From Actinomycetota bacterium (GTDB taxonomy: Bacteria; Actinomycetota; CADDZG01; WHSQ01): a stretch of DNA of 47,300 bases. The position numbers were made by a program, and so were the translations under genes. Every line of letters starts with the position of its first letter. Positions within the stretch are counted from its first letter, which is position 1. The stretch is from contig WHSQ01000022.1 of assembly GCA_009380005.1 (NCBI GenBank), positions 1 through 47,300 on the forward strand. The letters run 5' to 3'. The notes beneath the pieces are model-generated. The model was given only the letters and a program-made list of their open reading frames with translations, was not told where the DNA came from and did not search any database. Of the stretch, positions 517-47,300 are shown in pieces.

Positions 517-694
517 GATTCCTCCTGGTGTCGGCGGGCGTCTGTTCCCGCACTGGCCCTACTTTGGCCGCTGCCATTTCCTGAATGGCCCGCTTGATCT
601 TGGTCTTGATCCGGGCCCTGCGGTTCTCTGCCTTTAGTCGTAGGCGAGCCCGTCCCTGTTCCTGACGAACGGTCAGGGTTACTGTCCTATTCAT
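422..694 (-). CDS. Possible small basic protein overlapping its neighbour
   Basis: An open frame of 90 residues starts at an ATG overlapping the terminase stop. It is very rich in Arg and Lys, especially near residues 13-36 and at the C-terminus. It overlaps the next gene by 95 bases, and putative promoter motif A lies inside it (549-568), so its second half may be accidental. The start position fits translational coupling to the terminase. It may be a real short gene or a shadow; evidence is weak. Confidence 0.35.
   Translation of the reverse strand: MNRTVTLTVRQEQGRARLRLKAENRRARIKTKIKRAIQEMAAAKVGPVREQTPADTRRNHEAIEPFRRTSRRRAIRTRELPRRDEAPGRR
549..568 (-). promoter_or_regulatory. Putative phage promoter, motif A (copy 2)
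   Basis: On the minus strand the sequence is CCAAAGTAGGGCCAGTGCGG, one base different from the copy at 14-39. It sits near the end of the late operon, just upstream of the last small gene, a place comparable to T7 phi OR at the right genome end. Promoter or origin function is inferred from recurrence and position. Confidence 0.5.
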
Positions 695-2874
695 AATACC
701 TGAGCCTCCGTGAGTTCCTTGATCTGGTCCGTGAGGGACTGAATGCGCCGGGCGATGCCGGGGTCTACCGCCCGCCCCGCCTGCAGGTCCTGCTGCAGGA
801 TGTCCCTGAGCATGTCCCGGCGGGTGACGGTCTTGGTTAGAACCTCGTCCTCCTCGATCAACTGTTCACCCATGGACAGGTCATTCCGCAGGCCGGTCCC
901 CACGGCTACGCGGTGAGTGTTCTTGTCTTCCCGATTGCGGCCCCCAAGCCCGCCGAACCTCAGGGGCACGTACCTTAGCCGGTCGAGCTTCTGCAGGTGG
1001 TGGCTGGAGATATTGTCCGCGGTGTCTGATATGAGGGAGGACTTGACGACGGCGATGGCATGCGCCAGGGCATCCACGATGTCGTCGTGGTCCTTGGCCT
1101 TGCCGGTGCGCCCGTCATAGGAAATACGGACCATCTGGTTAACAAAGTCACCGCCGTGGTCGGAGCGGGCGACTTGTTCGAGTATTACAATCCGCCCTGC
1201 CCCCATAGGAGGCGCAAGGGCCTCGATGATGCGCCGGCCCTTCTGCTGCTGCCCCGTAGTGACCTTTCGGACGCTCACGGGGTAGTCCAGTAGGATCAAC
1301 TCACCTTCAAGGGTCTCACCAAAGAAGCCCTCTTCGGTCTCCTCCACCACCAGTTCGGTGATCTTGAAGGTCCGCGCGATCTCCGCCACGCGGCGCATGT
1401 TCGAGCCCTTGGACGGGCCGCGGACGCCCTCAAGGTGCCGGATGACGGCGAAGCCCGAGGGTGTCACGGAGATTACTGAGACGCCGATAGCGTCCCGGCC
1501 AGCGAGGCCGGATGCCGGGTCCACCGACATGACGGTCATGGCGTAGTCTGCGTCGCCCCCAGCGGCCTCTCCGCGGTACCAAAGGTCGCCCTTGGGCGCT
1601 CCCCAGGTGGGGACGTCAAGGGCTACTTGGTTGGTCCTTTGGACGACTAAGGGGAACTTTGGCGCCAGCGGGGACGCCGCCACAAGTATGAAGTCGCTGA
1701 TCTTCAGCGGCCGCTCATTGAGGATGGACGGGTCCGCGATCAGCATGGCGTGCAGGCGCCACGCGCGGGCCGTGACGGACTTGCGCCAGTCCAGGCCGTC
1801 CTTGTCGGAGAACATCTGCGGCCAGCGGGAGCGGACGGTCTTGGTGTCGGGGTCCTCCTCGAACATGATAGCCCGGTGGAGTTCCCAAATGGACTCCCCG
1901 TCCGCGTCCGACTTGTCGGCCAGGCGAGCATAGATCGAGAACTCGGACTGGTAGGTCCCGAGCATGATCTTCTCGCCCTTGGGGTTGATCATGTGGAGTT
2001 CGTTAAGTTGCTCCTCCAGGTCCACCACCTTCTCGGGGGTGTCGTCGGCGCCGGACTCAACGTCGTCGCCGATGGTAAGGTCCGAGCGATAGCCGGGGAG
2101 GTCCGAGCCGCGGCCGAAAGAACTGAGCGTAGCGCCACCTGTAGTGACCTTGAGGGACTGCGGCGTCTGGAACTGCTCGGCGTTGTCCAGACAGTCTTCG
2201 GTCGGCTTTAGGTGCGTCAGCATGGGGCAGTTGGCCAGGAAGACGTGCCGGACCGTACGCAGCATCCGGGCCGCCAGCTTGGCGCCCTTGGACACCACCA
2301 TGATCTTGATGAGCGGATTTAGCATGACCCGCCACGCCACGTAGATGCTGGTCAGCGTGGACTTCGCACTGTAGCGCGTGGCGATGATCAGGCGCCGGCG
2401 ATGCTCAGAGATCAGACCGTCGATGATGTCGTCGTGGATGGCGCCGGGCTCTACCCAGCCGGCCACAAGCGGCTTCACGCACTTGACAAACAAGCGAAAG
2501 CTATCCTTCCGCTGCCCGTTATCGTGCAACTGAACGATGCTGTCCCGGAGCAACTTGGCGATTTCATCGGCCCGGCCAGGGTTCCTGCCCGTCTCCGTCA
2601 ACAGGTACATTTCCGCGATCAGGTCGTCGGTCTCGTCCTCGCGGCCCACCGCCAGGATAGGGGCGACGCTGGACTGCTTGGTCAGACGCTCCGCAGACAA
2701 CACGCCCTGACAGACGCGGCAGGTGTCGTGCCAGTCCCGCGTGCCCTTCTTGGACAGCGAGAAGTTCTTTTCGGAGACCTCTTTGATCTCACCACAGGAA
2801 ACACATTCGCGGGGACGGCCCAACTCTGCGCGGGCTACCGGGCCCATCTTGCGGCGGGTCTTGGGAGGGGTCAT
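691..2874 (-). CDS. terL: Terminase large subunit with N-terminal zinc finger
   Basis: DNA packaging motor: an ATPase that pumps DNA into the prohead plus a nuclease that cuts concatemers. Visible are an ATPase region (ATRYSAKSTLTSIYVAWR, about residue 165), an acidic strand LTIGDDVESGADD, and nuclease-type acidic motifs (VDPASGLAGRDAIG, VEETEEGFFGETL, DDIVDALAHAI) in the C-terminal half. At 727 residues it exceeds T7 gp19 (about 586). The extra N-terminus carries a C4 zinc site (Cys24, Cys27, Cys52, Cys55) whose spacing resembles the zinc ribbon of the two endonuclease VII-like genes in this genome. No small terminase was recognised nearby. The ATG has an AAAGG ribosome site. Confidence 0.93.
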   Translation of the reverse strand: MTPPKTRRKMGPVARAELGRPRECVSCGEIKEVSEKNFSLSKKGTRDWHDTCRVCQGVLSAERLTKQSSVAPILAVGREDETDDLIAEMYLLTETGRNPGRADEIAKLLRDSIVQLHDNGQRKDSFRLFVKCVKPLVAGWVEPGAIHDDIIDGLISEHRRRLIIATRYSAKSTLTSIYVAWRVMLNPLIKIMVVSKGAKLAARMLRTVRHVFLANCPMLTHLKPTEDCLDNAEQFQTPQSLKVTTGGATLSSFGRGSDLPGYRSDLTIGDDVESGADDTPEKVVDLEEQLNELHMINPKGEKIMLGTYQSEFSIYARLADKSDADGESIWELHRAIMFEEDPDTKTVRSRWPQMFSDKDGLDWRKSVTARAWRLHAMLIADPSILNERPLKISDFILVAASPLAPKFPLVVQRTNQVALDVPTWGAPKGDLWYRGEAAGGDADYAMTVMSVDPASGLAGRDAIGVSVISVTPSGFAVIRHLEGVRGPSKGSNMRRVAEIARTFKITELVVEETEEGFFGETLEGELILLDYPVSVRKVTTGQQQKGRRIIEALAPPMGAGRIVILEQVARSDHGGDFVNQMVRISYDGRTGKAKDHDDIVDALAHAIAVVKSSLISDTADNISSHHLQKLDRLRYVPLRFGGLGGRNREDKNTHRVAVGTGLRNDLSMGEQLIEEDEVLTKTVTRRDMLRDILQQDLQAGRAVDPGIARRIQSLTDQIKELTEAQVL

Positions 2875-2892: not shown

Positions 2893-3498
2893 TTAGGAGG
2901 AGAGAGATATCAGGGTTGCGTCGTCAAGCGCCTTCGTCTCGTACTCGGCCACGCGGGCGATGGTCCCGGTGAATGAGGCCTCACCCACGGTGTTAGCCCC
3001 AAATAGGTAGCTATCATTCAGGACGCCTGCAGCCCATACGACGCCCGTCGCCGTTACTACTGTTGCCCCGTCAAGGCTGGCGCCGTGATTGTTGGTGTCA
3101 GTGCGGATGGCTACTTTATGTGTCGTGTTGCCAGTGACGGCGCCCGCCACGAAGTCCGCCCGGTTGGCCCCGCCCTGGCGCACCTGAACACGAACATTGC
3201 CGCCGGAGACGTAGACAAGAAATCGGTTGTTGGCCGTCCCGTCGTTGGCGGTGAATACGAATTGTGTCGTAGTAACGTCTGCGCCCGTCGTGAACTCAAT
3301 CAGGAACGAGAACGGCGCGTCTATACTGCGGGAGATAGAGCTAGGTACTGCCGGGTCAAGGAACACCTCGGACGGCGTCAGCCCGCCACCCCCGCTGCCG
3401 CCGCCCCCAATGCGCCGCCCTACGCGGACCACGTCCTGCTGCCGCTCCCTGATCTGAGCCAGCATGGCGTGCAGGTCGGCGTCGATATGTACGTGCAT
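2893..3498 (-). CDS. LamG-like jelly-roll protein with Gly/Ser linker
   Basis: A 201-residue protein with three parts: an N-terminal helix (HIDADLHAMLAQIRERQQDVVRV), a flexible GGGGSGGGG linker near residue 35, and a beta-rich domain of about 145 residues whose composition and strand pattern (FSFLIEFTTG, FLVYVSGGNVRVQVRQG, ending RVAEYETKALDDATLISL) resemble concanavalin/LamG sugar-binding jelly rolls. It lies between the holin-like genes and the terminase. A tail-associated carbohydrate-binding or decoration role is likely but inferred. The ribosome site is weak. Confidence 0.65.
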   Translation of the reverse strand: MHVHIDADLHAMLAQIRERQQDVVRVGRRIGGGGSGGGGLTPSEVFLDPAVPSSISRSIDAPFSFLIEFTTGADVTTTQFVFTANDGTANNRFLVYVSGGNVRVQVRQGGANRADFVAGAVTGNTTHKVAIRTDTNNHGASLDGATVVTATGVVWAAGVLNDSYLFGANTVGEASFTGTIARVAEYETKALDDATLISLSS

Positions 3499-3502
3499 GG
3501 TG

Positions 3503-3943
3503 TTAACTGGAGTTTCGGATGATGCTCGCCCCGAAGTACAGGCCGGTGATGGCCCCCAACAGGTGCGTGTCCAGTGGAGTAATCACAAGGCCCTTGGCGG
3601 TCTTCCACGCGACCTCGTTAGACCCCTCGAAGAACAGGAAGCCGGGGGACCATTCGGTCCAGCCCACGGTTACGGAGGTCTCGGGCATGAACACGGCCAC
3701 GAGCTTCGGCAGCAGGACCACCGCGAACACCGCCGTCAGGGCGATGATGCGCCGGGTGAATTGAAAGCCGGGGTTGGAGTAGCGGCGTGCTTGGTCCACT
3801 GCTTCAGCCTTGGCTTTCAGGGCCTCAAGGGCCATGATATGTTCAGCCTGACGAGCCTTGATCGACTGCGACCACAGGGACATTACGCCGCCCATGATGC
3901 CCGATCCGAGGAGCGTCAGGAGTTCTAAGGGGATGCCTAACAT
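3503..3943 (-). CDS. Holin-like membrane protein, three predicted spans
   Basis: 146 residues with hydrophobic segments near residues 4-24 (LELLTLLGSGIMGGVMSL), 64-85 (RRIIALTAVFAVVLLPKLVAVF) and 129-143 (LLGAITGLYFGASII), separated by a charged helix rich in Ala, Lys and Glu. The layout recalls the three-span holins of gene transfer agents and some phages. Holins form the membrane lesion that times lysis. Its ATG overlaps the stop of the preceding 60-residue gene (TAATG) and has AGGACG upstream. Position between tail fibre and terminase matches the T7 lysis genes. Function is inferred from topology and place. Confidence 0.6.
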   Translation of the reverse strand: MLGIPLELLTLLGSGIMGGVMSLWSQSIKARQAEHIMALEALKAKAEAVDQARRYSNPGFQFTRRIIALTAVFAVVLLPKLVAVFMPETSVTVGWTEWSPGFLFFEGSNEVAWKTAKGLVITPLDTHLLGAITGLYFGASIIRNSS

Positions 3944-4125
3944 TATCGCGTCCTGTCGTAGAGATCATCCACGCGCTTGCGGATGTAGGTGATGTCGTCG
4001 CGCATGTCCTCCACCTGTTCCTTGTCGGCTTTGCCGTCCTCAAGGCGGTTAAGGCGGGTGTGTTGCCATACCATTGGCCCGGCGAAGATGAAGCCGATAA
4101 GCCACTTCCAATCTAAATCGATCAT
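3943..4125 (-). CDS. Small one-span membrane protein, T7 gp17.5-like in position
   Basis: 60 residues: a short hydrophobic segment near the N-terminus (WLIGFIFAGPMVW, about residues 8-20) followed by a charged coiled-coil-like tail (RLEDGKADKEQVEDMRDDITYIRKRVDDL). A single span plus a soluble helix fits a class II holin or an accessory lysis protein, and the neighbouring gene is also holin-like. It begins 34 bases from the divergent sulfotransferase gene, so the two share a tiny intergenic gap. No strong ribosome site is visible. Confidence 0.6.
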   Translation of the reverse strand: MIDLDWKWLIGFIFAGPMVWQHTRLNRLEDGKADKEQVEDMRDDITYIRKRVDDLYDRTR

Positions 4126-4159
4126 TGTTAAACTGCCGTATTAGGAGGTGAGGGGGTAA

Positions 4160-5005
4160 ATGTTCGGATATCTCAAGAACTACCGGCGCGCTTTCAAGGC
4201 CGCGGCGGCGGATCGGGATCGTCTCAGTAGGGAGTTGACCTGTCTGAAGGCCGGCTACGCCAAGGCAATCGACGCCGGGTTGTGGCCGCACCCCAACACC
4301 ATGCTGGAACAACAGAAGGCCATCGAGAGAGGCATCGGACCCGTCCTGCTCGCCACCCTCCCCAAGTCCGGCAGCGTCTATGTCTGGAATGCGCTCTACG
4401 GCACCTATGGGATGCCGGGGGGAAAGATCGCCGTCCCCCACTCCATGATGGACGAGATAATTGTCGAAGAGTGGCTCAGGTTGTTCTCCGCGGGTGGAAT
4501 GATTGCCCAGCACCACCTCCCCGCGACGGAAAACAATATCCGCCTGCTCAAAAAGTACGGCCCTCGAAAGATCATCGTTCAAATCCGTGACCCCCGACAG
4601 GGCGCCGTCTCTTACTGGCACTACATCGTGAAGCTCGGTCACGCTGATCCCGATATACCTATCGAGGACAGGGAAAAGTTCCTCTGGGACCATTATCTCC
4701 TGCCCGCCAGAGAATGGTTTGACGGTTGGCTCGCCGTCGAAAACACTCTCGATCTAATGTTCTCCCGTCAGGAGGATATGGCCGGGAACGAGTACATTCA
4801 CATTTCCAGGATCGCCGCCTTTCTCGACATGCCCGACAAGAAGATCAGACTCCCCGCCAAGGGGGACAAAACTCACTTCCGATCCGGCCTAAAGGACGAG
4901 TGGCGGGAGTTCTTTTCCGCCGACTTCCAAAGCCGCGCCGACGATCTTCTCGCTCCCATAGATGAAAGGTTTTTCGGGCTAGACGACGCCCGCGCCCGAG
5001 TTTAA
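4160..5005 (+). CDS. Sulfotransferase (PAPS-dependent type), only plus-strand gene
   Basis: 281 residues with the landmarks of cytosolic-type sulfotransferases: a 5'-phosphosulfate-binding loop (LLATLPKSGSVYVW, residues 63-76, PKSGS at 68-72), a 3'-phosphate motif (VQIRDPRQGAVSYWHY, 140-155), and a late FRSGLKDEWREFF (240-252) that recalls the conserved RxGxxGxW segment. Such enzymes move sulfate from PAPS to an alcohol or amine. The substrate is unknown; surface polysaccharide or lipid is a reasonable guess. A strong AGGAGGTGA ribosome site precedes the ATG. It is the only gene on this strand, convergent with the tail-fibre gene (stops overlap) and antisense to the late transcript, so it may be expressed outside lytic growth. 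Confidence 0.85.
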   Translation: MFGYLKNYRRAFKAAAADRDRLSRELTCLKAGYAKAIDAGLWPHPNTMLEQQKAIERGIGPVLLATLPKSGSVYVWNALYGTYGMPGGKIAVPHSMMDEIIVEEWLRLFSAGGMIAQHHLPATENNIRLLKKYGPRKIIVQIRDPRQGAVSYWHYIVKLGHADPDIPIEDREKFLWDHYLLPAREWFDGWLAVENTLDLMFSRQEDMAGNEYIHISRIAAFLDMPDKKIRLPAKGDKTHFRSGLKDEWREFFSADFQSRADDLLAPIDERFFGLDDARARV

Positions 5006-7125
5006 AACCCGAACACCACGGCGCGGAAAACCCCTGAGTCAGGGTTGATGGCGCCGCTACTAACGTTGGTCGCGGTAACTGTCACCGTATTGGCCGCGCT
5101 CACATGCCCCCTGTAAATGATTAGACCGTTATGGGCGGCGGTTGGCACGCCGATGGCAACAGCGTCGCCAACCTGCGCGCGGGAAACAGTGATAGGTTGT
5201 CCATTAGATGCGCCTGCATTTATGGAGGGAAAGTCTATCGTCGCTGTTCCCGTTAGAACCCGGCGCAGATTGATGTCATCCACGTTATTAGCCGCCGAGG
5301 CGTTGGAAATATTGAACGTCCAGCCCTCATATGTGTTCGGGCCCGCCACACCATTTGCGGCCCCGCTTATGATGCTAATGCCGGTTCCCCCACCACTATT
5401 GCCGTTCAGGAAGTTTCCGCTGATGTTGAAGCCGTCCACTCCAGCCCCAACCAATATCGCGCCGCTCACGCTGCCGGTAAAGGTATTCCCGGTGATTGTC
5501 AGCGCTGAAACGTCAACACTGTCGGCGATATGGATCATTGCGCCGGACGGGCTGCCGTTGAACATACAGCCTGTGACAATGAAGGTATGGAGTGACCTCG
5601 TGCTGTTACCCCCCGCGAAGATGAAGCTTCGTGAAGCCGTTTCGAACGAGCAATTTGAGATCAGCGGGCCGCCGCTGTCCCCGTCCTGCCAGTCAATGTG
5701 GATGCTGTCGTGCCCGGTTAGAAACTTGCTGTTGGTTATCTTTAGAGACCCGCTTGACTGCCAGAAAATGCCGCGCGCGTCCGTGGTCGTCGGCGCGGTA
5801 AACTCACAGTTGGAAATGCAACTATCACCTTTATCCGGAGCGATGGCGTTCTCGACGTGGCAGGCGTACCAACTATGGAGGATACAATTTTCCAGAAGGA
5901 AGTTTGAAGCGTTGCGGAAATGCGCCCCTGCCGAGTGTGAGGAAGTGGAGACATTGCGGATTGTGACGCCCTCCACTACATGGGCGATGGTCGTGTCGGC
6001 GACGCTAACTGTATTATCGGCAGCGGCGGAGACCTCAACCGTTGTACTGTTGGTGACGCTTGAGATGACCGGAGTGCTGGTTCCATCGTAGGCCCCGGTA
6101 ATCCGTATCTTCGCGCCCACGTCGGCGGCAGTGAAGGCGGCCGTGGCGCTAGTGAAGGTGGTACTGGCTTCTGTAATGGCGCCGTCCGCAACGGTACGCT
6201 CAAGCGAGCCAACAACAATGGCGCTTCCCTTACTCACGGCAGTGCGCGCGGCGGTTCCTATGAAAGAAAGACCGTCTATGACGACGTAATCGTGGTTGAT
6301 CGTGAAGATGTCGTTGTCATCATTCGCCGTGATGATGCGGGCCAATGCCGGGCTGGCGCCGATCCTCTGAATGCCAGGGCCGATGATACGAATGGCGCTT
6401 GTAAGATTGACGGTCCCCTCGATCAAGTAGGTACCTGCGGGTACCAAGAGGACAGCGGTTCCACTATCTACCGCGGTCTGAAACCCCGCTGTACTGTCGG
6501 ATGCGCCGGTTGGATCAACACCGGCAAAGGCCGTGACTGCGATAATGCCGTTAAGCCCCTCAACCGCTTCTTCCGCATCAGCCGCGCTGGCCTCTGCGGA
6601 CGTAGCACTATCCGCCGCTTGAACCGCGCTAGCCGAAGCTGCGTCCGCGCTCGCCGCGGCTGCCGTCGCAGCCCCCCCGCCCCAATTAGCATCACCATAG
6701 GCTTTAGTTGCGGCGTCTTGCGCGGAGGTAGGGTCCGTCACGTTCTTGATACGACGGGACTGCGCGGTCCAGTTGTCGTCCGTATCGAGGCCCATAGCCG
6801 TGTCTGCTATGTCTAAAGCTTCCTGCGCCATGTAGAAGGCCTGGAGCGAATCGTTATCCAGGTCTGCCTCACCCAGCAGCCCCGCCACGTAGTCCACCAG
6901 CCGCGCGTCCTGCGAGGTCTTGCGCTGGACGATAACCACGTCGGCCTCTGTCGCGCCCGTGGTCAGGCGGACGACGGACGATGAGAAGAAGGTGTAATCC
7001 GTGCCTTGGGTTAGTTCCACGCCCTCCTGGAACACGAAGACATCAGGTTCTGACAAGTAGGGGAAGCTGATGACAAAGTCCGTTTGGGCGGCAGTGGCGG
7101 CATATACGTCACGCGCGAAGGCCAT
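5002..7125 (-). CDS. Tail fibre/tailspike with T7 gp17-type N-terminus and beta-helix
   Basis: 707 residues. The first 150 or so (AFARDVYAATAAQTDFVISFPYL onward, with ALDIADTAMGLD) match the T7 gp17 tail-attachment domain in style. An alanine-rich coiled coil follows (about 150-190). The rest is a repetitive beta-rich region beginning GVDPTGASDSTAGFQTAVDS, the typical start of a pectate-lyase-like right-handed beta helix, as in tailspikes that bind or cut surface polysaccharide. The ATG has AGAGA upstream and overlaps the operon behind gp16. The stop overlaps the stop of the convergent sulfotransferase gene within TTTAAAA. Enzymatic activity cannot be told from sequence. Confidence 0.88.
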   Translation of the reverse strand: MAFARDVYAATAAQTDFVISFPYLSEPDVFVFQEGVELTQGTDYTFFSSSVVRLTTGATEADVVIVQRKTSQDARLVDYVAGLLGEADLDNDSLQAFYMAQEALDIADTAMGLDTDDNWTAQSRRIKNVTDPTSAQDAATKAYGDANWGGGAATAAAASADAASASAVQAADSATSAEASAADAEEAVEGLNGIIAVTAFAGVDPTGASDSTAGFQTAVDSGTAVLLVPAGTYLIEGTVNLTSAIRIIGPGIQRIGASPALARIITANDDNDIFTINHDYVVIDGLSFIGTAARTAVSKGSAIVVGSLERTVADGAITEASTTFTSATAAFTAADVGAKIRITGAYDGTSTPVISSVTNSTTVEVSAAADNTVSVADTTIAHVVEGVTIRNVSTSSHSAGAHFRNASNFLLENCILHSWYACHVENAIAPDKGDSCISNCEFTAPTTTDARGIFWQSSGSLKITNSKFLTGHDSIHIDWQDGDSGGPLISNCSFETASRSFIFAGGNSTRSLHTFIVTGCMFNGSPSGAMIHIADSVDVSALTITGNTFTGSVSGAILVGAGVDGFNISGNFLNGNSGGGTGISIISGAANGVAGPNTYEGWTFNISNASAANNVDDINLRRVLTGTATIDFPSINAGASNGQPITVSRAQVGDAVAIGVPTAAHNGLIIYRGHVSAANTVTVTATNVSSGAINPDSGVFRAVVFGF

Positions 7126-7127
7126 AG

Positions 7128-10100
7128 TTAGTCTCTTTCTGCTAGTCGAGCGAGCATCTGAAGGTAGAAGAGGTTTAGAATCGGGATGCGCCGCGACAAC
7201 ATATCGGTCGCTCCGCTCACGTCGCCGTCGAGATAGCGGCGGGTGATCGCGGGTAGGGTCCCGAGCGCCGTTCCTATCACCGGGCCAGCCAGAGCGAAGG
7301 CGCCCTGTTGTTCACGGAAGCGCGAGGACGACTCCATGAGCGGCCGGACGCCGGTCACGTCCTGGATGCGGTCGTTGCCGACGCGGCCCATCGTGGACAT
7401 TGCCACGTCGGTCAGCATGGAGGACGGGCCGGCCATCATGGGACTGCGGAGAATGCCGCCCCATAGATTCTCTTTCCACCCCTCTGCACTTTCCCAGCGG
7501 TCCAGCCACGCCTCTCCCTCACCCCGCGCGGTTTCCTTCAGGCCGTCCGTCATGACGCCCAGGAAGACGCCCGCGAGGGCCGCAAAGTACGGCCGTATCG
7601 AGGTCGGGTGTATCTGCATTTCCTGGATCATCGGAGCGATGAAGCGTTCGCCCGCGGTGAACATGAAGGACTGGAACTGCATGAGTAGGCGGCCGCCGGC
7701 AAAGGAGCGTAAGAATGAACGGTCGGCAATGCCCGGCTCGATCATCGCCTCCTTACCCGCCGCGTCTATGGCGATCTGATACTTCGACAACAGGTCCGGG
7801 CGTTCCTCGGCCCACTTGGAGGCGTGGGGGTATCTCAGGTGTCCGTTGACCGCTGAGTGATGGGCGCGGTTCATCAGGTCCGTCATGTCGCGGGCGTCGT
7901 CGGCGTTGATCCCAACCTTGGCGTAGAAGCTCTTGAGATAGGGCGGCAGTGAGACGTAGCGGGCAAAGTCCTGATCCATCTGTCGCGCCATGTCGAGGCC
8001 GAAGCCCCCCCGCCAAAAGATGTTCCAGACATTCGCCAGGTTGGCCCAGCCCTCGATCTTGGCGACCGCATCCGTCCCCCGCATGACACTGCGCCACTTG
8101 CCGCCGGGAATGTCGAAGTCCCGGTTATCCACGTCGGCAATAGCGCGGAAGCGCGCGGCGTCCAGCGTGCCTGATCCCTGTATAAGGACGGCAAGCTCTG
8201 GTTCGTTCTTGGCGATTTCTCGAATGTGCTTGTTGACGCCCCGGCGCCACATCATGCGAAAGCCGGTGCCGAGCCGCCCGCCGGCCATGATCTGGACACC
8301 AAGGTCCCCCAACTGCGCCAGGACCAGTCCACCCAGCGACGATGCCGCCGTTGCGGTATTCAGGACCGACACGAGTTGTTGTGCGCTTTTCTTGGTATTC
8401 CGCAAGCCGGTTACGTCTGCCCCGGTCATTTCCTCAAGTATCTCATCGAAGATTTTCTTGGCGCGCACCCGCTCCCGGTTGATGGCGCTGCGCCCACTTT
8501 CCGAGGCGGTCTTCATCAGGTCGTCGTCAAACCCTTGTAGGGCCACCCGACGGACATTCTCCAGAGAGAAGTCCAGTCCCTCGCGCTCCAGTATCGGCGC
8601 GAAGACTTCGCGGAGCGCCACCTGCGTCCCTACGGACGAATCGAACGCCGTGCGGGCGTCGTGGGTGGAGGTCAGCAGGAATCGGCGGGACTCATCGCGG
8701 AACCGATGACGGCCAAGGTGGATGTTGCGGCGCTTGAAGCGGCTGCTGGACTGAATGAACTCAGGGTCGATAAAGTCGAACGGGCTGTCGTTATCCAGGA
8801 TCGCGCGCTTGATGCTTTCGATCTGCTCGGTGACCAGCCTGCGGCCGGCGATCTGGACTTCCTTTTGGGCGGCCCTGCGCGCAACGCGCTCAATCTTGTT
8901 GAGGGCCTTCTTCTGACCCGCGTTGCCGAGACGGCGAATGGCGGCGTCGGCAGCGTCACCGCTGACTGAGCGGCCCATGGCAATGGGGAAGGTCCCGGAC
9001 AGTGAACGGTCGGCCGCCTCCAGGGTCCTCAGGACCTCCAGCTTTCCCTCTTCGTCGGCAATGCGCTTCTCGATCTTTCCCAGCCTAGTGGCTAGGATCG
9101 GGCGGGCCTGCTGCGCGCTTTCGGGCGCATTGGGGCGCCTAAGGCTTTCAAGCTGCGCTTCGATCTTCTGAGCCGAGCGGCGGGCGCCCTCCAGGTTCTT
9201 CTGGACGCGCTGCTCAATCTCCATCAGGGACTTGCCCCTCAGGCGGGTAAGCTCGCGGTCCTTGGCCCGTGCAATGACGGCCTGAGTATTCGCGGCGTCC
9301 TCTCGGACGGCGGCAGACCAGTCCTCAAGGATGTCGTTGGCGGCCTCGGGGTCCCTCTTGGAGAAGGCGTCCCAGGTCTCGCCGTCCTTCATGGCCGGCT
9401 CGAAGGTGCCGTCCTCTTTGCGGAGGCCGTAGTTGGTCCGTATCCAGTCCTCGTCGGGCTGCTTCTCGAAGACCTCAGTGAGGTACTGTTGGAAGCCCAT
9501 GGGGTCCTTGGCGATCTCCTCGCGGTTCCACCGCTGAGGGCGATAACCGGGGATCAGGTCCTCTTCTTTGATAAGACCGTGCTTGAGTTCCGCGGCGCCG
9601 AACTCCTGATAGTAGGCGTCTTCGTCGGCCGCGGTCTTCTTCAGGCGATCGATCAACGTGCTTCGTTGGTCGGGCGTTAGGCGGTTTCCTATATCGGTGG
9701 GGATGATGTCCACCGCGTCAAGATGGCCCTGGGCGAGCGCCATGGCGTACTCGTCGGCCATCGCTTCGTATTGCTCTTGGCTGATCAGGCGCTTCTCGAA
9801 GGAGTGCAGCGCGTTGTTCCTCAGTGCACGGCGAACACCACCGACGCCGAATACGTCCTTCATCATGGCGGCGTAGTCGGCAGTCGCGGTCTCCTGACGC
9901 GCGAGGCGCTTAGCGCGGAACACGCTGCGGAGGTCGTCCACGGCGGGAGCGCGGGCTACCCCGCCACCCACCTCATCCGCCATTACGGTAGACAAACGGA
10001 CGACGCGGGACATGGTGTCGAACCACTTGCGGCCGCCCTCAAGGCCCTTCTCAATAAAGTCTTTGTTCCCCTTGACGCCTATGTCGGTCATCACGCGCTT

Positions 10101-11069
10101 GGGGCTGCGTAAGACGGACTCTTGGGCGGCTTGGGGTATAACCTTGCCGGACACAAGCGAGCCTGCACCCTTGCCGGGGACGTTGACCGTGGCGGCCTCA
10201 ACCGCGCCCGCGGCGCCGACTGAGCGGGGACCACGGGAGGCGATGGCGCTCTCTACGGCCGCAGCGTGCGGCTTGAGGTTGTCGATGTCGTCTGCGATGC
10301 GCCGGACGTTGCCCAGCAGGGTCGGGGAGACGAAGCCAAGAAAGGCGCCGGCGCCGGCGCCGAAGCCTGCGGCCTCGAATAGATCGCGGTCGCTAATCAG
10401 GGGGTTGGTCAACTGCTGCGCGCGGCGCTCGGCAAAACCTTCAACGGCGCCAAAGGCGCCCAGGCGACCGGCTGAGGCGGCCCGTGCGGCGAACGCGCCG
10501 CGGACCCCCAGCGTCCCGAACAGGCCGGCACCGCCCGTCAGCGCCGTGGTTCCCCACAGGGCCATGATGTCGATACCGATACCGCCAATCATCCCCACCA
10601 GTTCCGGCACGAAGCCGTTGGCTTGGGCGATGCGCTGGCGCTCCTGAGCGTCCCGCAAGTTGGTGATGATTTGTGCGGTCTCGTGGGCGGACTGGCTGTC
10701 CGCCAACAGGGACAGGACAGCAGAACTATCGGGGTCGTCGGGCCTGTCCAGGAAGTCTTGGACCAGCTTGAGATCGTCGGGGCGGCTCGTCAGGTCCGCT
10801 TCAATGTCGTAGTCAGGATCAGGCGGCAGTGAAGCCTTGCGGCGAGCGGCCGCGCGCGCCAGCCCCGTCACGACGCCGCTGTTGGCGAAGGCGGCCGAGA
10901 CGGAACTGAAGACAGGAACGTCACTGTCAGCGTCGAAGTCGTCTGCGTCAAAGCTGCGGAGGCCCGAGGAGGGGCGGTCCGTCAGACTCAGGGCGGCTTC
11001 TGTTCGCCCCGCCAGCGTGCGGGTGAAGCCCGTGTCTATCGGCAGAGGGGCGCCTACGGCGTCAGCCAT
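7128..11069 (-). CDS. Internal virion protein, gp16-like
   Basis: 1313 residues, almost the length of T7 gp16 (about 1318), in the gp16 position directly before the tail fibre. It is largely helical and charged, with hydrophobic alanine/glycine stretches near residues 155-210 that could insert in membranes during DNA ejection. T7 gp16 begins with a transglycosylase domain; I see none here, and a lysozyme domain instead ends the preceding gene. The start codon overlaps the gp15-like stop (TTTAATGG) with AAGGGGA upstream. It should act in the ejectosome that carries DNA across the envelope. The identity rests on length, order and style. Confidence 0.85.
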   Translation of the reverse strand: MADAVGAPLPIDTGFTRTLAGRTEAALSLTDRPSSGLRSFDADDFDADSDVPVFSSVSAAFANSGVVTGLARAAARRKASLPPDPDYDIEADLTSRPDDLKLVQDFLDRPDDPDSSAVLSLLADSQSAHETAQIITNLRDAQERQRIAQANGFVPELVGMIGGIGIDIMALWGTTALTGGAGLFGTLGVRGAFAARAASAGRLGAFGAVEGFAERRAQQLTNPLISDRDLFEAAGFGAGAGAFLGFVSPTLLGNVRRIADDIDNLKPHAAAVESAIASRGPRSVGAAGAVEAATVNVPGKGAGSLVSGKVIPQAAQESVLRSPKRVMTDIGVKGNKDFIEKGLEGGRKWFDTMSRVVRLSTVMADEVGGGVARAPAVDDLRSVFRAKRLARQETATADYAAMMKDVFGVGGVRRALRNNALHSFEKRLISQEQYEAMADEYAMALAQGHLDAVDIIPTDIGNRLTPDQRSTLIDRLKKTAADEDAYYQEFGAAELKHGLIKEEDLIPGYRPQRWNREEIAKDPMGFQQYLTEVFEKQPDEDWIRTNYGLRKEDGTFEPAMKDGETWDAFSKRDPEAANDILEDWSAAVREDAANTQAVIARAKDRELTRLRGKSLMEIEQRVQKNLEGARRSAQKIEAQLESLRRPNAPESAQQARPILATRLGKIEKRIADEEGKLEVLRTLEAADRSLSGTFPIAMGRSVSGDAADAAIRRLGNAGQKKALNKIERVARRAAQKEVQIAGRRLVTEQIESIKRAILDNDSPFDFIDPEFIQSSSRFKRRNIHLGRHRFRDESRRFLLTSTHDARTAFDSSVGTQVALREVFAPILEREGLDFSLENVRRVALQGFDDDLMKTASESGRSAINRERVRAKKIFDEILEEMTGADVTGLRNTKKSAQQLVSVLNTATAASSLGGLVLAQLGDLGVQIMAGGRLGTGFRMMWRRGVNKHIREIAKNEPELAVLIQGSGTLDAARFRAIADVDNRDFDIPGGKWRSVMRGTDAVAKIEGWANLANVWNIFWRGGFGLDMARQMDQDFARYVSLPPYLKSFYAKVGINADDARDMTDLMNRAHHSAVNGHLRYPHASKWAEERPDLLSKYQIAIDAAGKEAMIEPGIADRSFLRSFAGGRLLMQFQSFMFTAGERFIAPMIQEMQIHPTSIRPYFAALAGVFLGVMTDGLKETARGEGEAWLDRWESAEGWKENLWGGILRSPMMAGPSSMLTDVAMSTMGRVGNDRIQDVTGVRPLMESSSRFREQQGAFALAGPVIGTALGTLPAITRRYLDGDVSGATDMLSRRIPILNLFYLQMLARLAERD

Positions 11070-14000
11070 TAAACGTCCCCTTGATTGAATGTTCCCCGGA
11101 AAAGCTGCGCCTCGTGCTTGCGCCGTGTGGCGAGGCCAAGCCGCCCCGACTTGTTGGAGTTATTCTCGATCTCGTCGGCAGCGTCGTCCCATCTGCCTTC
11201 ACGAATGGCGGCCGTCAATTTGGGACCAATCAGCGTCGGCCCGCTTGCGTCCCACCGGCTGTTGTAGGCGAGGGAGACAAGGGACATCCAACGATGGTTG
11301 CTCATTTCCACGCCCTCAAAGCGGTCGCGTAGCCAATTCGCTGACTCACGCACGGCGAGGCCGAGGAGTTTGTCCTGTTGCGCTAGGGTAAGGAACTGAG
11401 TGCGGGCCATGAGTTTGTCGTAGTCGGCCCCCACTTTCTTGATGAGTTTCCGTGCGTCAGGGCGGCGCATGTTGAAGCCGATGCCAACGGTCGGATCACC
11501 CTTGGCTTTGGGCCCCCATGGGCGGCTTGTCGCGTCGTCATAGACGGACGTTGACCGACCTTCGTATTCCCCGAGCATGGAGGTGACTTCAGACAGGAAC
11601 CGCTTGTTGCGGGGCTGCGTGAGGTCGTCCAGCCACCGACCGTTGGACCGCTCCCTGAGCAGGCCCGCGCGCGTGCGCGTGTCAAGGTCCGCCTCAGGGT
11701 CGTCGTCAACTGCCGTCTGCGGCGAGATCACGCCGCGGGACTGAAGCTCATTCATAGCCCCGTCGCGCTGATCGCGCTGGCCGTCCATTTCGTCGTCGCT
11801 CAGGGGACCTTCGGAGTCCGGCTGCGGCACAGGGGAGCCGACGACACCGCGCCGCTCAATCTCTTTAGTCGCCGCAAGGTTTCCCTTGCCCGCCAGCCGC
11901 TTGAGGTCCCCCATGGGCACCTCAGTGAGGTCCCGTTGGGACACAGGGCCCGCCCTACGCGCCGCCTTGTTCTTCTCGTTCAACTCCGACATGGACATCT
12001 TGGGCGCGCCGGTGGCGGCATAGCGCAGGGTCCAGCCCTTACGGCTGTCGTCGTACAGCATGAACAGATTGTCGTTCAGGTAGACGCGGTTGTTCGCGCC
12101 CGGCTCCGGCGCATTCGGAATTTGAATGAGCATGGTGTCCTTGGCCTCGTCCTTCTGGACGACTTCAAAGAACGCGCTGGGCATGTTGGGCGGGATGTCG
12201 GAGATCGGAATGATCATCTTGGACCCCGGCATTAGGTTGATGTCTTGAGGGAACCCCGTCGCCATCGAACGGACGGCTAAGCCGCCGCCTGCGCGGGTAA
12301 GGGTGTCCTGCGTGAGGCCACCATGGCCGCCTATGGCCGTGACTACGGCGGCGGCCTCGGGCGTCTCAAGGGAGGCCTTGGCCCGCTCCAGGACCTGCAT
12401 CGTCACCCGGTCGCCCGGCGCGGGGGACCCATCGGGGGCCAGTGAGAGAGGAGGAGTCTGATCCAGCGTGATCGAAGGCTTCCCCTCGGGGGAGAGTTCC
12501 AACCCGAACTCGCCGCGGACCATTTCGCCCGCGAGCGCACGGACTTCATCCACGCTGACGTGGCTACGGGACAGCATGAAGCTGGCCGCGTTGACGGCAC
12601 TTTCGAGACGATCCTGTGCAACAGACGGAAGCTCATCGTAGTCGGGGAGCGTGGTGCCCCCCAGCAGGCCGCCGGTCATCCGATTGATGAGCCCAGCCGT
12701 CTCAAGGTCCTGTCGGTCGATCTCCGACCACAGCTTGGCCGCCTGTTCGGAGACGCCGCCGCGGCCCTGCGTCTTCCCTTTGTCCATGCCACGGCCGGCG
12801 CCGGGGGAGACCAGGCGCTGCTCAAAGTGGCTACGAGGACCGCCCTCGCCATTCGAGGCGTCGAGCGCCTCAAGGAACTGCGCGCGGACCTGCATTGGAT
12901 CGCGTCCGGCCTTCTGCGCCCACAACATGGTGCTGTACAGGTCCGTGGCGTTCTCGGGCAGGTGGAAGTTCTTCATGGGCCGGTCGGATATGCGGTCCAC
13001 AGCCATGAGCTTCACGAAGGTCTCAGAGACCTCTTGAGCATTCGTTGAGCCCAGGAGGACGGCGCCGTTGGCGTCCATGGCTTCCTTGCCGCTGCCGCGG
13101 CGGCCAATGGCCTGCCATGCGCGGTTCCTTGCGGCCTCCTCGGACAGGCCCTCAGCCATCAGTGCAGGAATGGCCGTACCGTCCCAAAGGGACTTCGCCA
13201 TCTTGCTCCAGTCGGCATCGGAGACGCCGGGCAGCAGGCCCTTGGCAATGCGCTTGTAGGACCCGACCTCGATCCCCTTCTTGTTCATTTCCGCCACGAT
13301 CTTGTCGCGGATGCCGTCAGCCTTGTCGCTGTCGCCATGGCGCTGCTTATGGGCGACGTGGTCGGCCCACAGCGAAGCGAGGCTGTCCCCCTCGCGGGGT
13401 GAACCGAGGCGGACCATCGCCAGTCGCTCCTCGAAGTCCTCAAGCTCGTTGTCGGCCTGTACGGTGGCGACGGCGTTCTTGCGCTTGATGAAGGCCTGCG
13501 CGGCCTTCTCCAGCTTGCCGGGGTTCCGGCTGAGGACCGACGTTCCGTCCCGCATGGGGTCAGGCATTTCGGCCAGCTTGATGGCGAGGGCGTTGCCGCC
13601 GGCCGCCATGGATATAAGGGTCTGGTCCATGATCGCGTCGCCGCGCCCAACCGCCTCGGGGGCGTTCATAGGCAGCGCACCGGTGATCTTGGAGCGCATG
13701 GCAATCAAGCCATCGACGGTGGGCGGGACCAGCCCGTTCCCCACGTCACGCTGAATGGTCTCCGTGGACAGCCGCTCGGCCTTGGACTGCTGTAATTCCA
13801 GGCGGCCCTCTGCGAAGTCACTGGTTTCCTTCTTCGACAACTGGCTTATGACGCGCGTGTAGGTCTGCGCGAAGGCGGGGTCTGCCCCCTTCAGGTTGTC
13901 CTTCAGGAAGGACCCAATGGCGTCTTCTGGGTCGCCGTCCATGGGCGTCGCGCGGATTTTGCTGCGCAGGTCGCCTTCGAAGTCGTCGGCCGCCATCTGC

Positions 14001-14398
14001 TGGGCAACGAGGCGTTGGAATGACTGTTGGATGACCCGACGACGGCGAAGGGCGTCCTTGGGGATGAATTTCGTATAGTCGCCCGTGCGGATGGCCAAGC
14101 GGGCCCCTTCGCGGTCTTGGCGGACTTCGGCCTCTAAGCGGGCCACCTCGTCGGTGTTCTCGCGCTCGGCCCTTGCGAGTTCCTTTTCCTGCTCATTCTG
14201 GATGCGGCCGCCGAAGAAGGAGGACAGAGAGTCGGTCAGCCCCGCCATGTCCACGGAAGCCGGCTTCACGACGGAGGCCGTCCGCGCGAAGTCCTGCGAA
14301 CGGGTCGTTACCTCGCCGGTGTCGATAGGCTGGGCGCCCGCGCGGCGCTCACGGCTCTGCCGTTCGCCCCCGGTCGATAGGGCGAGATCAATAGCCAT
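11069..14398 (-). CDS. Internal virion protein, gp15-like, with C-terminal T4-type lysozyme domain
   Basis: 1109 residues, longer than T7 gp15 (about 747). The main body is helical and polar. The last 170 residues or so form a recognisable GH24 muramidase: MLGEYEGRSTSVYDD (catalytic Glu, then Asp), PTVGIGFN (the Thr-Val-Gly-Ile-Gly strand), SLVSLAYNS, and a final GLATRRKHEAQLF. This would open peptidoglycan locally during DNA entry. T7 carries its wall-cutting domain at the start of gp16, the next gene; here it sits at the end of this one. No separate endolysin was found in the window. Start and stop overlap the neighbours (TAATGG). Confidence 0.87.
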   Translation of the reverse strand: MAIDLALSTGGERQSRERRAGAQPIDTGEVTTRSQDFARTASVVKPASVDMAGLTDSLSSFFGGRIQNEQEKELARAERENTDEVARLEAEVRQDREGARLAIRTGDYTKFIPKDALRRRRVIQQSFQRLVAQQMAADDFEGDLRSKIRATPMDGDPEDAIGSFLKDNLKGADPAFAQTYTRVISQLSKKETSDFAEGRLELQQSKAERLSTETIQRDVGNGLVPPTVDGLIAMRSKITGALPMNAPEAVGRGDAIMDQTLISMAAGGNALAIKLAEMPDPMRDGTSVLSRNPGKLEKAAQAFIKRKNAVATVQADNELEDFEERLAMVRLGSPREGDSLASLWADHVAHKQRHGDSDKADGIRDKIVAEMNKKGIEVGSYKRIAKGLLPGVSDADWSKMAKSLWDGTAIPALMAEGLSEEAARNRAWQAIGRRGSGKEAMDANGAVLLGSTNAQEVSETFVKLMAVDRISDRPMKNFHLPENATDLYSTMLWAQKAGRDPMQVRAQFLEALDASNGEGGPRSHFEQRLVSPGAGRGMDKGKTQGRGGVSEQAAKLWSEIDRQDLETAGLINRMTGGLLGGTTLPDYDELPSVAQDRLESAVNAASFMLSRSHVSVDEVRALAGEMVRGEFGLELSPEGKPSITLDQTPPLSLAPDGSPAPGDRVTMQVLERAKASLETPEAAAVVTAIGGHGGLTQDTLTRAGGGLAVRSMATGFPQDINLMPGSKMIIPISDIPPNMPSAFFEVVQKDEAKDTMLIQIPNAPEPGANNRVYLNDNLFMLYDDSRKGWTLRYAATGAPKMSMSELNEKNKAARRAGPVSQRDLTEVPMGDLKRLAGKGNLAATKEIERRGVVGSPVPQPDSEGPLSDDEMDGQRDQRDGAMNELQSRGVISPQTAVDDDPEADLDTRTRAGLLRERSNGRWLDDLTQPRNKRFLSEVTSMLGEYEGRSTSVYDDATSRPWGPKAKGDPTVGIGFNMRRPDARKLIKKVGADYDKLMARTQFLTLAQQDKLLGLAVRESANWLRDRFEGVEMSNHRWMSLVSLAYNSRWDASGPTLIGPKLTAAIREGRWDDAADEIENNSNKSGRLGLATRRKHEAQLFRGTFNQGDV

Positions 14399-19240: not shown

Positions 19241-19851
19241 CTAATTCTCCGCCCGCGCAACCGCGCGCTGCTGCATGTTGCCATGCAGATCAGACTATAT
19301 CATAAGCGTTCACGTAGATAAGAGAGAGCCTCGCTGACGACATCAGGGTCGTCTCTCAACTTACCAATTCCAAGGTTACAGTGCTGGCACAAGAGGCCAC
19401 GGACGTTGCCCGTGTTGTGGTTGTGATCAACCACGAGGCCTATCCACGATCTATGAGCACCGACCTGCGGTGCGTCGTCGGCGTGGACGCCGCATATTGC
19501 ACATCGATGATCCTGATCCGCTAACATCTGGTTCAGTTCATCTGCTGTAATGTTGTATCGTTTCAGGATGCGTAACCCGTGTTGCCGCTTATCCCGTCTA
19601 CAATACTTACAGTGACCTTGGAACCCATCCTTACGCGCCCTGTTTGGACCAAACTCAGAATTTGGTTTGGTCCGAGCGCACTTCGGACAGTACTTCATGA
19701 ACACTTCCCCGCGCTTCGGGCCGCTTGGCCCTACTTCCTTTCGGAATAGTCGTTGAACCCTCCTGCCCTAGAGCAGGCGAAGGCTGCTGATTGTCCCAGA
19801 GGGAGTTCCCAGCAATTCACGGGGTTTATGAGAGATCAGGACTGACATTTA
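19241..19851 (-). ncRNA. Group I intron in the major capsid gene
   Basis: 611 nt on the minus strand. P1: exon end GUCAGGAU pairs over all eight bases with GUCCUGAU just inside the intron, including the conserved U.G pair at the 5' splice site. The core then runs AAUUGCUGGGAA (P), ACAAUCAGCAGC (Q), GUUCAACGACUA (R) and, near the 3' end, AUAUAGUCUG (S). P7 forms from GACUAU (19746-19751) and AUAGUC (19293-19298). A P9-like hairpin CUGCAU/AUGCAG follows. The intron ends in G before exon CGUCCU. A homing endonuclease gene lies between R and S, after the small P8-like hairpin UUCC-GAAA-GGAA. Splice sites are my assignment. Confidence 0.9.
19300..19698 (-). CDS. Intron-encoded homing endonuclease, endonuclease VII/HNH type
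   Basis: 132 residues from the ATG at 19698 (GTG at 19704 is also open). An N-terminal zinc ribbon (Cys4, Cys7, Cys30, Cys33) is followed by a helix and the recombination endonuclease VII core, CAICGVHADDAP then VVDHNHNTGNVRGLLCQHCNLGIG. The DHNH and second CxxC are the metal and zinc sites of this family. These enzymes cut intron-less alleles so the intron copies itself in. The gene sits inside the intron, and its stop codon is next to the S strand of P7. Low-GC stretches around it fit a mobile origin. Confidence 0.9.
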   Translation of the reverse strand: MKYCPKCARTKPNSEFGPNRARKDGFQGHCKYCRRDKRQHGLRILKRYNITADELNQMLADQDHRCAICGVHADDAPQVGAHRSWIGLVVDHNHNTGNVRGLLCQHCNLGIGKLRDDPDVVSEALSYLRERL

Positions 19852-20140
19852 ATCCTGACCCAACATCTCCTGGCCGGCCGAATGATACGCGGCCGAAACC
19901 TTCCCTTTATGCGCAGGAGTAAAGACCCGGAAGAAGAGAATAGGTCTTAGGGAACTGCGCGGACTTGCCGGAGCTAATCTCACGCATGTAGTGCTTGTCG
20001 GCGGTGTGGACGGCTTCAGAGAAAGCCGCAAATACCTCGCCTCCGAAAAGCTTGAGGAAGAGACCCGTTTCATCAGACGTGTTAGCCACGTCCATTCCGA
20101 AGCGGGTTGGGGCGCTCGGGTCGCCCACGAAAAGAGCCAT
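19852..20140 (-). CDS. Major capsid protein, exon 1 (contains a frame break)
   Basis: The ATG at 20140 has TTGGAGG upstream. The product begins MALFVGDPSAPTRFGMDVAN and reaches EISSGKSAQFP, matching T7 gp10 SISSGKSAQFP. The frame then runs KTYSLLPGLYSCA to a stop at 19907. The next homologous piece, GKVSAAYHSAGQEMLGQD (T7: GRTQAAYLAPGENLDD), is in the +1 frame and runs to the intron at 19851. So a full capsid protein needs a +1 shift near 19946-19951 or a skipped gap. Sequencing error, programmed frameshift, bypassing or a broken gene are all possible. The split from exon 2 is explained by the group I intron. Confidence 0.82.
19922..19948 (-). promoter_or_regulatory. Stem-loop at the capsid frame break
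   Basis: On the minus strand AAGACC (19943-19948) can pair with GGTCTT (19922-19927) around a 15-base loop. It begins exactly at the lysine codon where the capsid frame must change. Hairpins beside a coding gap or shift site are typical of recoding signals, but a 6-bp stem can also arise by chance. Confidence 0.35.
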
Positions 20141-20325: not shown

Positions 20326-20853
20326 CTAGACGATGTTGAGAGTCCCGCCGAGCGCAACGTCGAGATCAAGGGTCTCTTCGCCGCCGCCAACGATGCCAAC
20401 ACGCAGCACGTCGCCGACCATCAGGCCGCCGACGTAGGTCTCAAGGTTGAACTCAATCGCGGGCTCCGCGTCGAGTTCTGCGGCGTAGCCTTCGTCGGCA
20501 TACGCAACGATGTCGTTGTTCTTGAACAGAACCACCGAAGCCGTGTCGGCCGCCTCAGGGGCGATCAGGCCATGGTCAACGTCAACGCCGGTCACCTTCA
20601 CGCGCACAGCGTTGCCCGGAGGGCCGCTGTAGATCACGCCGGGCTCGCCGTCGAGGTCGATACCGTTCACCGGGGTCTCACCGGTACGGCCTTCCGCCGT
20701 GCCACTGTAGGTCCAGTCGCCGTTGATGACGGGGGCCGCGCCTTCAAGGGCTAGAGCCTCAGCTCCTTCGGCCACAACGGCGGCGGCGGTAGCTTCGGAC
20801 ATATCCGCCGAAAAATCGACGGCTTCAAGTTTTACGCTATTGGTCAGAGTCAT
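20326..20853 (-). CDS. Virion-region protein, possible head decoration, unknown
   Basis: 175 residues, acidic and rich in Ala, Gly, Val and Asp, with an alternating beta-strand pattern and no cysteine or membrane span. I do not recognise the family. It sits between the 2OG-oxygenase-like gene and the capsid gene, where head fibre or decoration proteins are often found, so that role is a guess from position. Translation starts at the ATG at 20853 with AGGA nine bases upstream, overlapping the end of the preceding gene by 17 bases. Confidence 0.65.
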   Translation of the reverse strand: MTLTNSVKLEAVDFSADMSEATAAAVVAEGAEALALEGAAPVINGDWTYSGTAEGRTGETPVNGIDLDGEPGVIYSGPPGNAVRVKVTGVDVDHGLIAPEAADTASVVLFKNNDIVAYADEGYAAELDAEPAIEFNLETYVGGLMVGDVLRVGIVGGGEETLDLDVALGGTLNIV

Positions 20854-21505
20854 TTTCTTTTTCCTGCTTGGGAGGGATGTACTTAAGGATCGTCGCGTTA
20901 CACGAAATGGCGATCCTTTCGCCGCTACGCACCGGATGGACGAAGTGGGGGAACCACGACGGAAAGATGATCATCTGTCCCGACTTCGGAGTGATCCGAA
21001 AAGCCGTTTGGAACTTCAGACCCTTCCGCTGGTAGCCGGAGCTACCCCGTGTGTCCACGAACTCAATATCGCCTGGACGGACGCGGGCTCCCGTTGCCAT
21101 TGTTATTTCATCGGCCTCATCGGTGTCCACGTAGTAGACGCCGGAGAAGTGACAATTTGGGTGGGAGTGGACCGTGGCGTAACCGCCATTGGTATAGACC
21201 ATCCCCCAGGCCATCATGTGGATGTCACATTCGCCTTGGGGGTCGGCCCCATAGGTTCCCGCATAGGCGCGGAAACTTTCACCGAACATCTGGCTCAGCT
21301 TCTTCCCGGCCTCTCCGGTCCACCGGAGTAAGCCGTCGTCGCTGTGCCAGGTGCCGGCCGTATTAGATCGGTACAGACCTGTAGGGTCCTCCTCCCGACG
21401 CTTGTAAATCGCCTCCTTCAACTGCCGGTTAAGATCGGCCGTGTCCTCCCACTCCTTGGCGCCGACGTGTGTGGGGAAGGCGCTCATAATCTGGAGCGGA
21501 GACAT
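20837..21505 (-). CDS. 2-oxoglutarate/Fe(II) oxygenase-like protein
   Basis: 222 residues. The core HSHPNCHFSGVYYVD (from residue 113) and SGQMIIFPSWFPHFVHPV with GERIAISCN (175-203) match the style of putative 2OG-Fe(II) oxygenases found in phages and bacteria (TIGR02466 type). Candidate metal ligands are His113 or His115 and His187 or His190; Arg197 is the likely 2-oxoglutarate ligand. These enzymes hydroxylate proteins, nucleic acids or small molecules; the target here is unknown. It is located inside the head-gene cluster, between scaffold and capsid, with its ATG overlapping the scaffold stop (CTAATG). Confidence 0.8.
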   Translation of the reverse strand: MSPLQIMSAFPTHVGAKEWEDTADLNRQLKEAIYKRREEDPTGLYRSNTAGTWHSDDGLLRWTGEAGKKLSQMFGESFRAYAGTYGADPQGECDIHMMAWGMVYTNGGYATVHSHPNCHFSGVYYVDTDEADEITMATGARVRPGDIEFVDTRGSSGYQRKGLKFQTAFRITPKSGQMIIFPSWFPHFVHPVRSGERIAISCNATILKYIPPKQEKENDSDQ

Positions 21506-34276: not shown

Positions 34277-34322
34277 CCCGCACTGGTCCTACTTTGGCTG
34301 TCCACCAGTGGACCGGTGCCAA
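34277..34322 (-). promoter_or_regulatory. Double element: motif A promoter and dispersed box before SSB
   Basis: On the minus strand TTTGGCACC and a perfect palindrome GTCCACTGGTGGAC come first, immediately followed by CCAAAGTAGGACCAGTGCGG. The run TGGACAG plus the motif is identical to the copy at 14-39. This is the only place where both recurrent words are complete and adjacent. Confidence 0.55.
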
Positions 34323-34712: not shown

Positions 34713-34740
34713 TGTCCACTGATGGACACCTTCAGGCAAA
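34713..34740 (-). promoter_or_regulatory. Dispersed box after RNA polymerase
   Basis: Minus strand TTTGCCTGAAGGTGTCCATC then AGTGGACAC: a TTGCCT-like element and imperfect palindrome GTCCATCAGTGGAC. It overlaps the last codons of the RNA polymerase gene and faces the cysteine-rich gene. Confidence 0.5.
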
Positions 34741-40069: not shown

Positions 40070-40080
40070 GGCTAGAGCCT

Positions 40081-41312: not shown

Positions 41313-41397
41313 TGGTACGGGCGCCCGGACTTGAACCGGGACCCCTTGCAGGGAGCGGGGTTTAGGCCCGCCGCGTCTACCATTCCGCCACGCCCGC
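41313..41397 (-). tRNA. tRNA-Leu (UAA)-like gene, probable attachment site
   Basis: 85 nt that fold as a class II tRNA: a 7-bp acceptor (GCGGGCG with CGCCCGT, one G.U), D arm GCGGAATGGTAGACGC, anticodon stem GCGGG/CCCGC with loop CCTAAAC (anticodon TAA), variable stem CCCT/AGGG, T arm CCCGG-TTCAAGT-CCGGG and encoded CCA. Position 33 is C where U is nearly universal. It lies 44 bases beyond a small gene downstream of the integrase, as expected for attP of a phage that integrates into a host tRNA-Leu gene. Alternatively it supplies a tRNA for rare UUA codons. Confidence 0.85.
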
Positions 41398-47245: not shown

Positions 47246-47300
47246 TAGCCCCGTGCTCCGCACTGGTCCTACTTTGGCTGTCCATACCCTGTTACTCATC
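47246..47300. repeat. Terminal direct repeat, right copy
   Basis: Identical to bases 1-55. The overlap closes the contig to a circle of 47,245 bases. It includes the same motif A promoter copy as the left edge. Confidence 0.9.

Follow-up and report, generated by a model that had tools for sequence, protein, structure and literature searches.

On the plus strand of the window, the whole 47,300-bp contig analysed here, a T7-like phage genome encodes a protein that is very probably a PAPS sulfotransferase by family. The gene runs against the late genes beside the tail fibre, is absent from the nearest relatives of the phage, and shares its genome with a lysogeny cassette. Comparison with those relatives strongly supports its interpretation as a moron. 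Our best single guess, to which we assign a probability of about 0.4, is that this moron would be expressed in quiescence, where its product would sulfate a precursor of a host surface glycan and change the receptor of the fibre.

Gene organization around the sulfotransferase

The terminase end of the window is organized as follows.

691–2874, minus strand: terminase large subunit of T7 type (phrog_38, E 1e-58; relatives L009–L011 and L049)
2893–3498, minus strand: LamG/lectin-like protein (Laminin_G_3, E 2e-5, just under the cut-off)
3503–3943, minus strand: conserved, membrane-like neighbour of 146 residues (phrog_38283; also in relatives L009 and L010)
3943–4125, minus strand: 60-residue gene without a family match of weight, divergent neighbour of the sulfotransferase gene
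4126–4159: gap of 34 bases between this divergent gene and the sulfotransferase gene
4144–4155, plus strand: Shine-Dalgarno-like stretch AGGAGGTGAGGG before the sulfotransferase gene, from the sequence
4160–5005, plus strand: sulfotransferase gene, ATG start, 281 residues, proposed moron
5002–7125, minus strand: T7-type tail fibre of 707 residues (PF03906, E 7e-26), convergent with the sulfotransferase gene

The open reading frame lies exactly where the preliminary description had placed it, with a strong AGGAGG ribosome site just 5' of the ATG. Its GC content by codon position (0.59/0.40/0.74) has the pattern of a real gene and is near that of the other genes in the window; the opposing minus-strand frame at 4049–4693 (214 residues) gives 0.75/0.41/0.55, a shadow pattern. 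A spurious reading frame is ruled out by the family match, the codon-position GC and the conserved motifs. Since none of ten long plus-strand frames tested elsewhere in the window has a Pfam match and every named phage gene lies on the minus strand, the sulfotransferase is, within these tests, the one plus-strand gene with support. The preliminary description had singled it out in the same way, and its placement of the gene antisense to the late genes and next to the tail fibre also agrees with the map. The stop codons of the sulfotransferase (5003–5005, plus strand) and the fibre (5002–5004, minus strand) overlap. On the other side, the gene at 3943–4125 may be lysis-like, judging by its position only. 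The LamG/lectin-like protein has no match in relatives L009 or L010.

Sequence motifs and predicted fold

A Pfam profile search returned one family, Sulfotransfer_1 (PF00685), scoring 36.1 bits where the cut-off is 22 (E 6.1e-9). The PKSGS (residues 68–72) and RDPRQGAVSYW (residues 143–153) motifs, from which a sulfotransferase had originally been proposed, are both present. An alignment placed the phage protein alongside 47 viral-contig sulfotransferases. All 48 rows share P68, K69, S70, G71, H118, R143, S151 and E205, and the C-terminal FRxG is retained as F240-R241-S242-G243. The 3'-phosphate site, defined by Arg, Ser and the C-terminal R-x-G, is thus present, with R143 and S151 found in 48/48 rows. 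The PKSG part of the 5'-phosphosulfate loop (PKSGTTW or PKSGNTW) is also kept, but the residues that follow differ: positions 72–74 are S-V-Y in the phage protein and N-T-W in all 47 viral relatives (T73V, W74Y). The Lys of K-T-H, conserved in 46 of the 47, is replaced by Gln or Ala in the phage protein (QHHLP, His 118/119); if the HLP of SULTs is taken as the anchor, the catalytic histidine would be H119, not H118. Because T73V, W74Y and the loss of the Lys before the His alter near-invariant positions, sulfotransferase activity is likely, though not assured.

An AlphaFold model built on the 48-row alignment has a pLDDT of 76.8 and a pTM of 0.71; folding from the single sequence reached a pLDDT of only 40. 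The 50 PDB matches listed for the model consist entirely of sulfotransferases and SULT-fold enzymes, many of them with PAP, at E values of about 1e-6 to 3e-5 and TM scores of about 0.4–0.5, and they include the SULT-fold retinol dehydratase. In a comparison with predicted viral structures, most of the top matches that carry a name are likewise sulfotransferases, including one of Synechococcus phage S-SCSM1. A profile search and a structure prediction had been proposed as checks on the assignment; the first scores above the cut-off, and the second gives a SULT fold for a protein that keeps core PAPS-site residues, so that the outcome named beforehand as refuting, a predicted structure lacking that site, did not arise.

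The protein resembles the cytosolic SULTs (PF00685; SULT1C2, 2ad1; SULT7A1, 5x2b; bacterial 3rnl) in its PKSG loop, catalytic-type His, 3'-phosphate Arg and Ser, FRxG and fold. It differs from them in its low identity (about 13–20% in structural alignments), in T73V and W74Y, in having no Lys before the His, and in some 45 additional residues that form a helical extension at the N-terminus of the model. The assembly that holds the window encodes an APS kinase, so PAPS would be available if this assembly represents the host.

Many SULT-type enzymes act on small molecules. A real sulfotransferase moron that acts on a small molecule, lipid or metabolite, with a metabolic or signalling benefit, is a somewhat unlikely alternative to a glycan acceptor. 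The fold is closest to the cytosolic small-molecule SULTs and glycan genes are absent beside the gene, both as such an acceptor would predict, but the place beside the receptor-binding gene, where relatives carry adhesins, leans weakly to a surface role.

Other viral sulfotransferases

Direct relatives of the protein were found neither by tblastn against phages and plasmids nor by a peptide-pattern search of viral and genome contigs, and a DNA scan for its protein motifs found nothing. One weak match came from 396 genomes of the phylum and was used as the query for a scan of viral contigs. This one scan yielded 57 viral loci (IMG/VR, L064–L120) with PF00685-like sulfotransferases, which are 14–22% identical to the phage protein. 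None of 48 tested sulfotransferases matches any PHROGs v4 family, and two of the viral proteins used as queries gave no matches in the isolate-phage collection.

In several of these loci the sulfotransferase sits among head or tail genes. Only one of the 54 with a complete reading frame (L107) has both neighbours on the opposite strand according to a simple ORF picker, which makes the orientation of the gene at 4160–5005 unusual. L107 also has a T7-type terminase and was considered as kin; it was rejected because it has no other gene in common with the window at 1e-5. An origin from the assembly's own sulfotransferases was likewise rejected: PF00685 has two further matches there besides the phage gene, and these are not recognisably related to it at the protein level.

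As an accessory gene of a tailed phage, the gene resembles the other phage-borne sulfotransferases (L064–L120, S-SCSM1 and the OM43 phages, whose genomes carry Sulfotransfer_3 with a role called unclear by the authors; PMC10580990). Unlike the IMG/VR copies, nearly all of which are co-oriented with their surroundings, it faces the late operon, and it does so in a T7-like temperate phage.

The phage genome and its lysogeny cassette

The contig is one of 639 in its assembly. Its ends share an exact 55-bp overlap, so it was assembled as a closed circle with no host flank, and an integrated prophage is excluded on the same grounds. The T7-like content, all on the minus strand, comprises a single-subunit RNA polymerase, portal, scaffold, head, tail tube, internal virion protein, fibre and terminase. 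The genes relevant to lysogeny are the following.

34732–37194, minus strand: single-subunit phage RNA polymerase (phrog_414, E 1e-188)
41313–41397, minus strand: complete tRNA-Leu(UAA), downstream of the integrase (ARAGORN)
41659–42678, minus strand: tyrosine integrase (phrog_1, E 4e-50)
42671–43033, minus strand: MarR-type regulator (phrog_9665, E 2e-18; tblastn)

An integrase had been noted before; the cassette proves fuller, with the MarR-type regulator, the tRNA-Leu and a repeated palindrome as a possible operator. The regulator lies directly upstream of the integrase, followed by the tRNA-Leu and, further on, the RNA polymerase. By tblastn, it is homologous to the regulators of T7-like pelagiphages and P-SSP7. 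In Pelagibacter phage HTVC105P the order of regulator, integrase and RNA polymerase is the same; unlike the window, that phage has its genes from fibre to terminase all on one strand, with no annotated sulfotransferase there. Pseudomonas phage LUZ100 has the same set of MarR regulator, integrase and RNA polymerase, and a tRNA by the integrase, as in the window, is reported for LUZ100 and for pelagiphages (PMC10134795). The T7-type genes together with a MarR-type regulator and integrase upstream of the RNA polymerase place the phage, at the sequence level, with the temperate T7-like phages already described (Autographiviridae with integrase).

The tRNA/att region has no second match in the assembly, and the tRNA-Leu genes fetched from it include no att match and no similar tRNA-Leu(UAA). 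Prophage copies of this phage group were found neither in 198 relatives of the assembly nor in the genome contigs searched. The assembly is connected with the phage as host only through the contig lying in it and is not certain to be the host; the absence of an attB or prophage therefore decides little. Integrase-bearing T7-like cyanophages are reported to integrate without forming stable lysogens (PMC8776855).

Several other features of the genome were observed. A group I intron (Rfam RF00028, 70.8 bits) at 19271–19861 on the minus strand contains an endonuclease VII-like frame (19300–19704) and apparently splits the major head gene, since 18446–19222 matches its family only from about position 100. 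A 2OG-Fe(II) oxygenase (20837–21505, minus strand; phrog_81, E 5e-37; TIGR02466) is encoded between the scaffold and head genes. In the internal virion protein region, a 1,109-residue protein (11069–14398, minus strand) ends in a phage lysozyme domain (PF00959, residues 944–1096).

The insertion site in related phages

Three relatives found through the terminase large subunit (L009, L010 and L049, 58–65% TerL identity) have no sulfotransferase at the fibre–terminase site, where their genes all run one way. An integrase is present in both of the longest contigs of near relatives. The N-terminal domain of the fibre is conserved in all three and the downstream part differs; the fibre domain is followed by a large DUF7483 protein together with a DUF4376 protein, by an adhesin of GP38 type, or by short genes without names. 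A scan with the conserved neighbour at 3503–3943 retrieved mostly other phage types, without a sulfotransferase. The site thus lies in a high-turnover region at the receptor-binding end of the genome. Its absence from relatives that hold adhesin or tail genes there is what marks the sulfotransferase as a probable moron in a variable receptor-binding region.

Expression signals

Given a gap of 34 bases, any core promoter of the sulfotransferase must sit in 4126–4159 or inside the gene at 3943–4125. A scan of 3000–7200 for sigma-70-like promoters gave 0 matches where chance alone would give 1.7, and upstream of the gene the best match, 8/12, scores the same as random stretches do. The missing consensus is weak evidence of absence, since the host may use another promoter type. 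Two repeated motifs were found elsewhere in the window.

13–32, 548–567, 34278–34297, 41920–41939 and 47258–47277, minus strand: copies of CCAAAGTAGGACCAGTGCGG, with one site at the contig ends
28324, 30021, 32426, 34300, 34714, 38955 and 45347: palindrome GTCCACNNGTGGAC, several copies just before genes of the early/middle region
near 40080, 41197, 44068, 44451 and 44807: weaker copies of GTCCACNNGTGGAC

All five copies of CCAAAGTAGGACCAGTGCGG, two of which represent one site that lies in the terminal overlap, are on the minus strand, and none would be expected by chance. This motif is a candidate promoter of the phage RNA polymerase; across the whole window, there is no copy near the sulfotransferase or on the plus strand. 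The palindrome has 13 matches at up to 2 mismatches (2.8 expected), and its good copies lie at 28–45 kb, with none near the sulfotransferase. It is a candidate operator array of the MarR-type regulator, in which case the sulfotransferase would escape the repressor. No terminator-like site was found between the fibre and lysis genes, so late transcription probably crosses the sulfotransferase in antisense, as the preliminary description had supposed. We infer that the gene may be expressed on its own, and in a lysogen.

A role in the lytic phase, with lysogeny irrelevant, is unlikely. Host polymerase would then read the gene early, before late antisense transcription, and the product would exclude other phages or modify phage or host components. 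The strong ribosome site suits such a role, as do the integrase-bearing T7-like cyanophages that behave as lytic (PMC8776855) and the finding that most of the viral sulfotransferases run in the same direction as the genes around them, which at several loci are head or tail genes. The copy in the window is, however, the exception in orientation, and the phage promoter-like motif is absent from its strand.

That the gene is a decaying or catalytically altered passenger, acquired, inverted by chance, its PAPS residues eroded and its expression of no use, is distinctly unlikely: T73V, W74Y, the lost K of K-T-H, the unrecognised promoter and the absence of a close relative from the collections searched speak for it, but the frame is intact, the ribosome site strong, the codon-position GC near that of other genes, and the core PKSG, His, R143 and S151 are retained.

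Functional implications

In the surface-sulfation reading that we favour, the gene of a PAPS-dependent, SULT-fold cytosolic sulfotransferase would have entered the genome between the fibre and the lysis/terminase genes, pointing against the late operon. Host RNA polymerase would most likely transcribe it alone while the phage is quiescent or integrated. The substrate would be a cytosolic precursor from which the host makes a surface glycan, and its sulfation would alter the receptor that the neighbouring tail fibre recognises. Expression in lysogens, the glycan acceptor and the effect on adsorption are conjectural steps, as are the silence in lytic growth and the block to superinfection suggested by the preliminary description. 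The sequence itself gives no hint of a glycan acceptor. Conversion is also opposed by the null promoter scan, the three changed near-invariant positions, the lack of a prophage copy in the searches, and the cyanophage parallel of integration without stable lysogeny (PMC8776855).

Temperate phages carry lysogenic-conversion genes that act on glycans, such as O-antigen gtr and acetylase genes. By analogy, the sulfotransferase may be an accessory gene that takes no part in the lytic programme and whose product would change a receptor on the cell surface; it would differ from these genes in acting by sulfation rather than glucosylation or acetylation, and in being a single gene. A stricter form of surface conversion, confined to lysogens, in which late antisense transcription would switch the sulfotransferase off so that progeny find their receptor, is very doubtful. 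If true, it would be a case of sulfation-based receptor masking coupled to the choice between lysis and lysogeny through transcript collision.

The literature search found no temperate T7-like phage with an antisense-placed sulfotransferase. Phage sulfotransferases and temperate T7-like phages are each already known. Sulfotransferases are widespread in tailed-phage contigs, as the 57 viral loci illustrate, and their role was called unclear in the OM43 study (PMC10580990). The copy described here, isolated and opposed in direction, belongs to a T7-like phage that also has a lysogeny cassette, and it offers a simple case in which to ask whether phage sulfation is a conversion trait.
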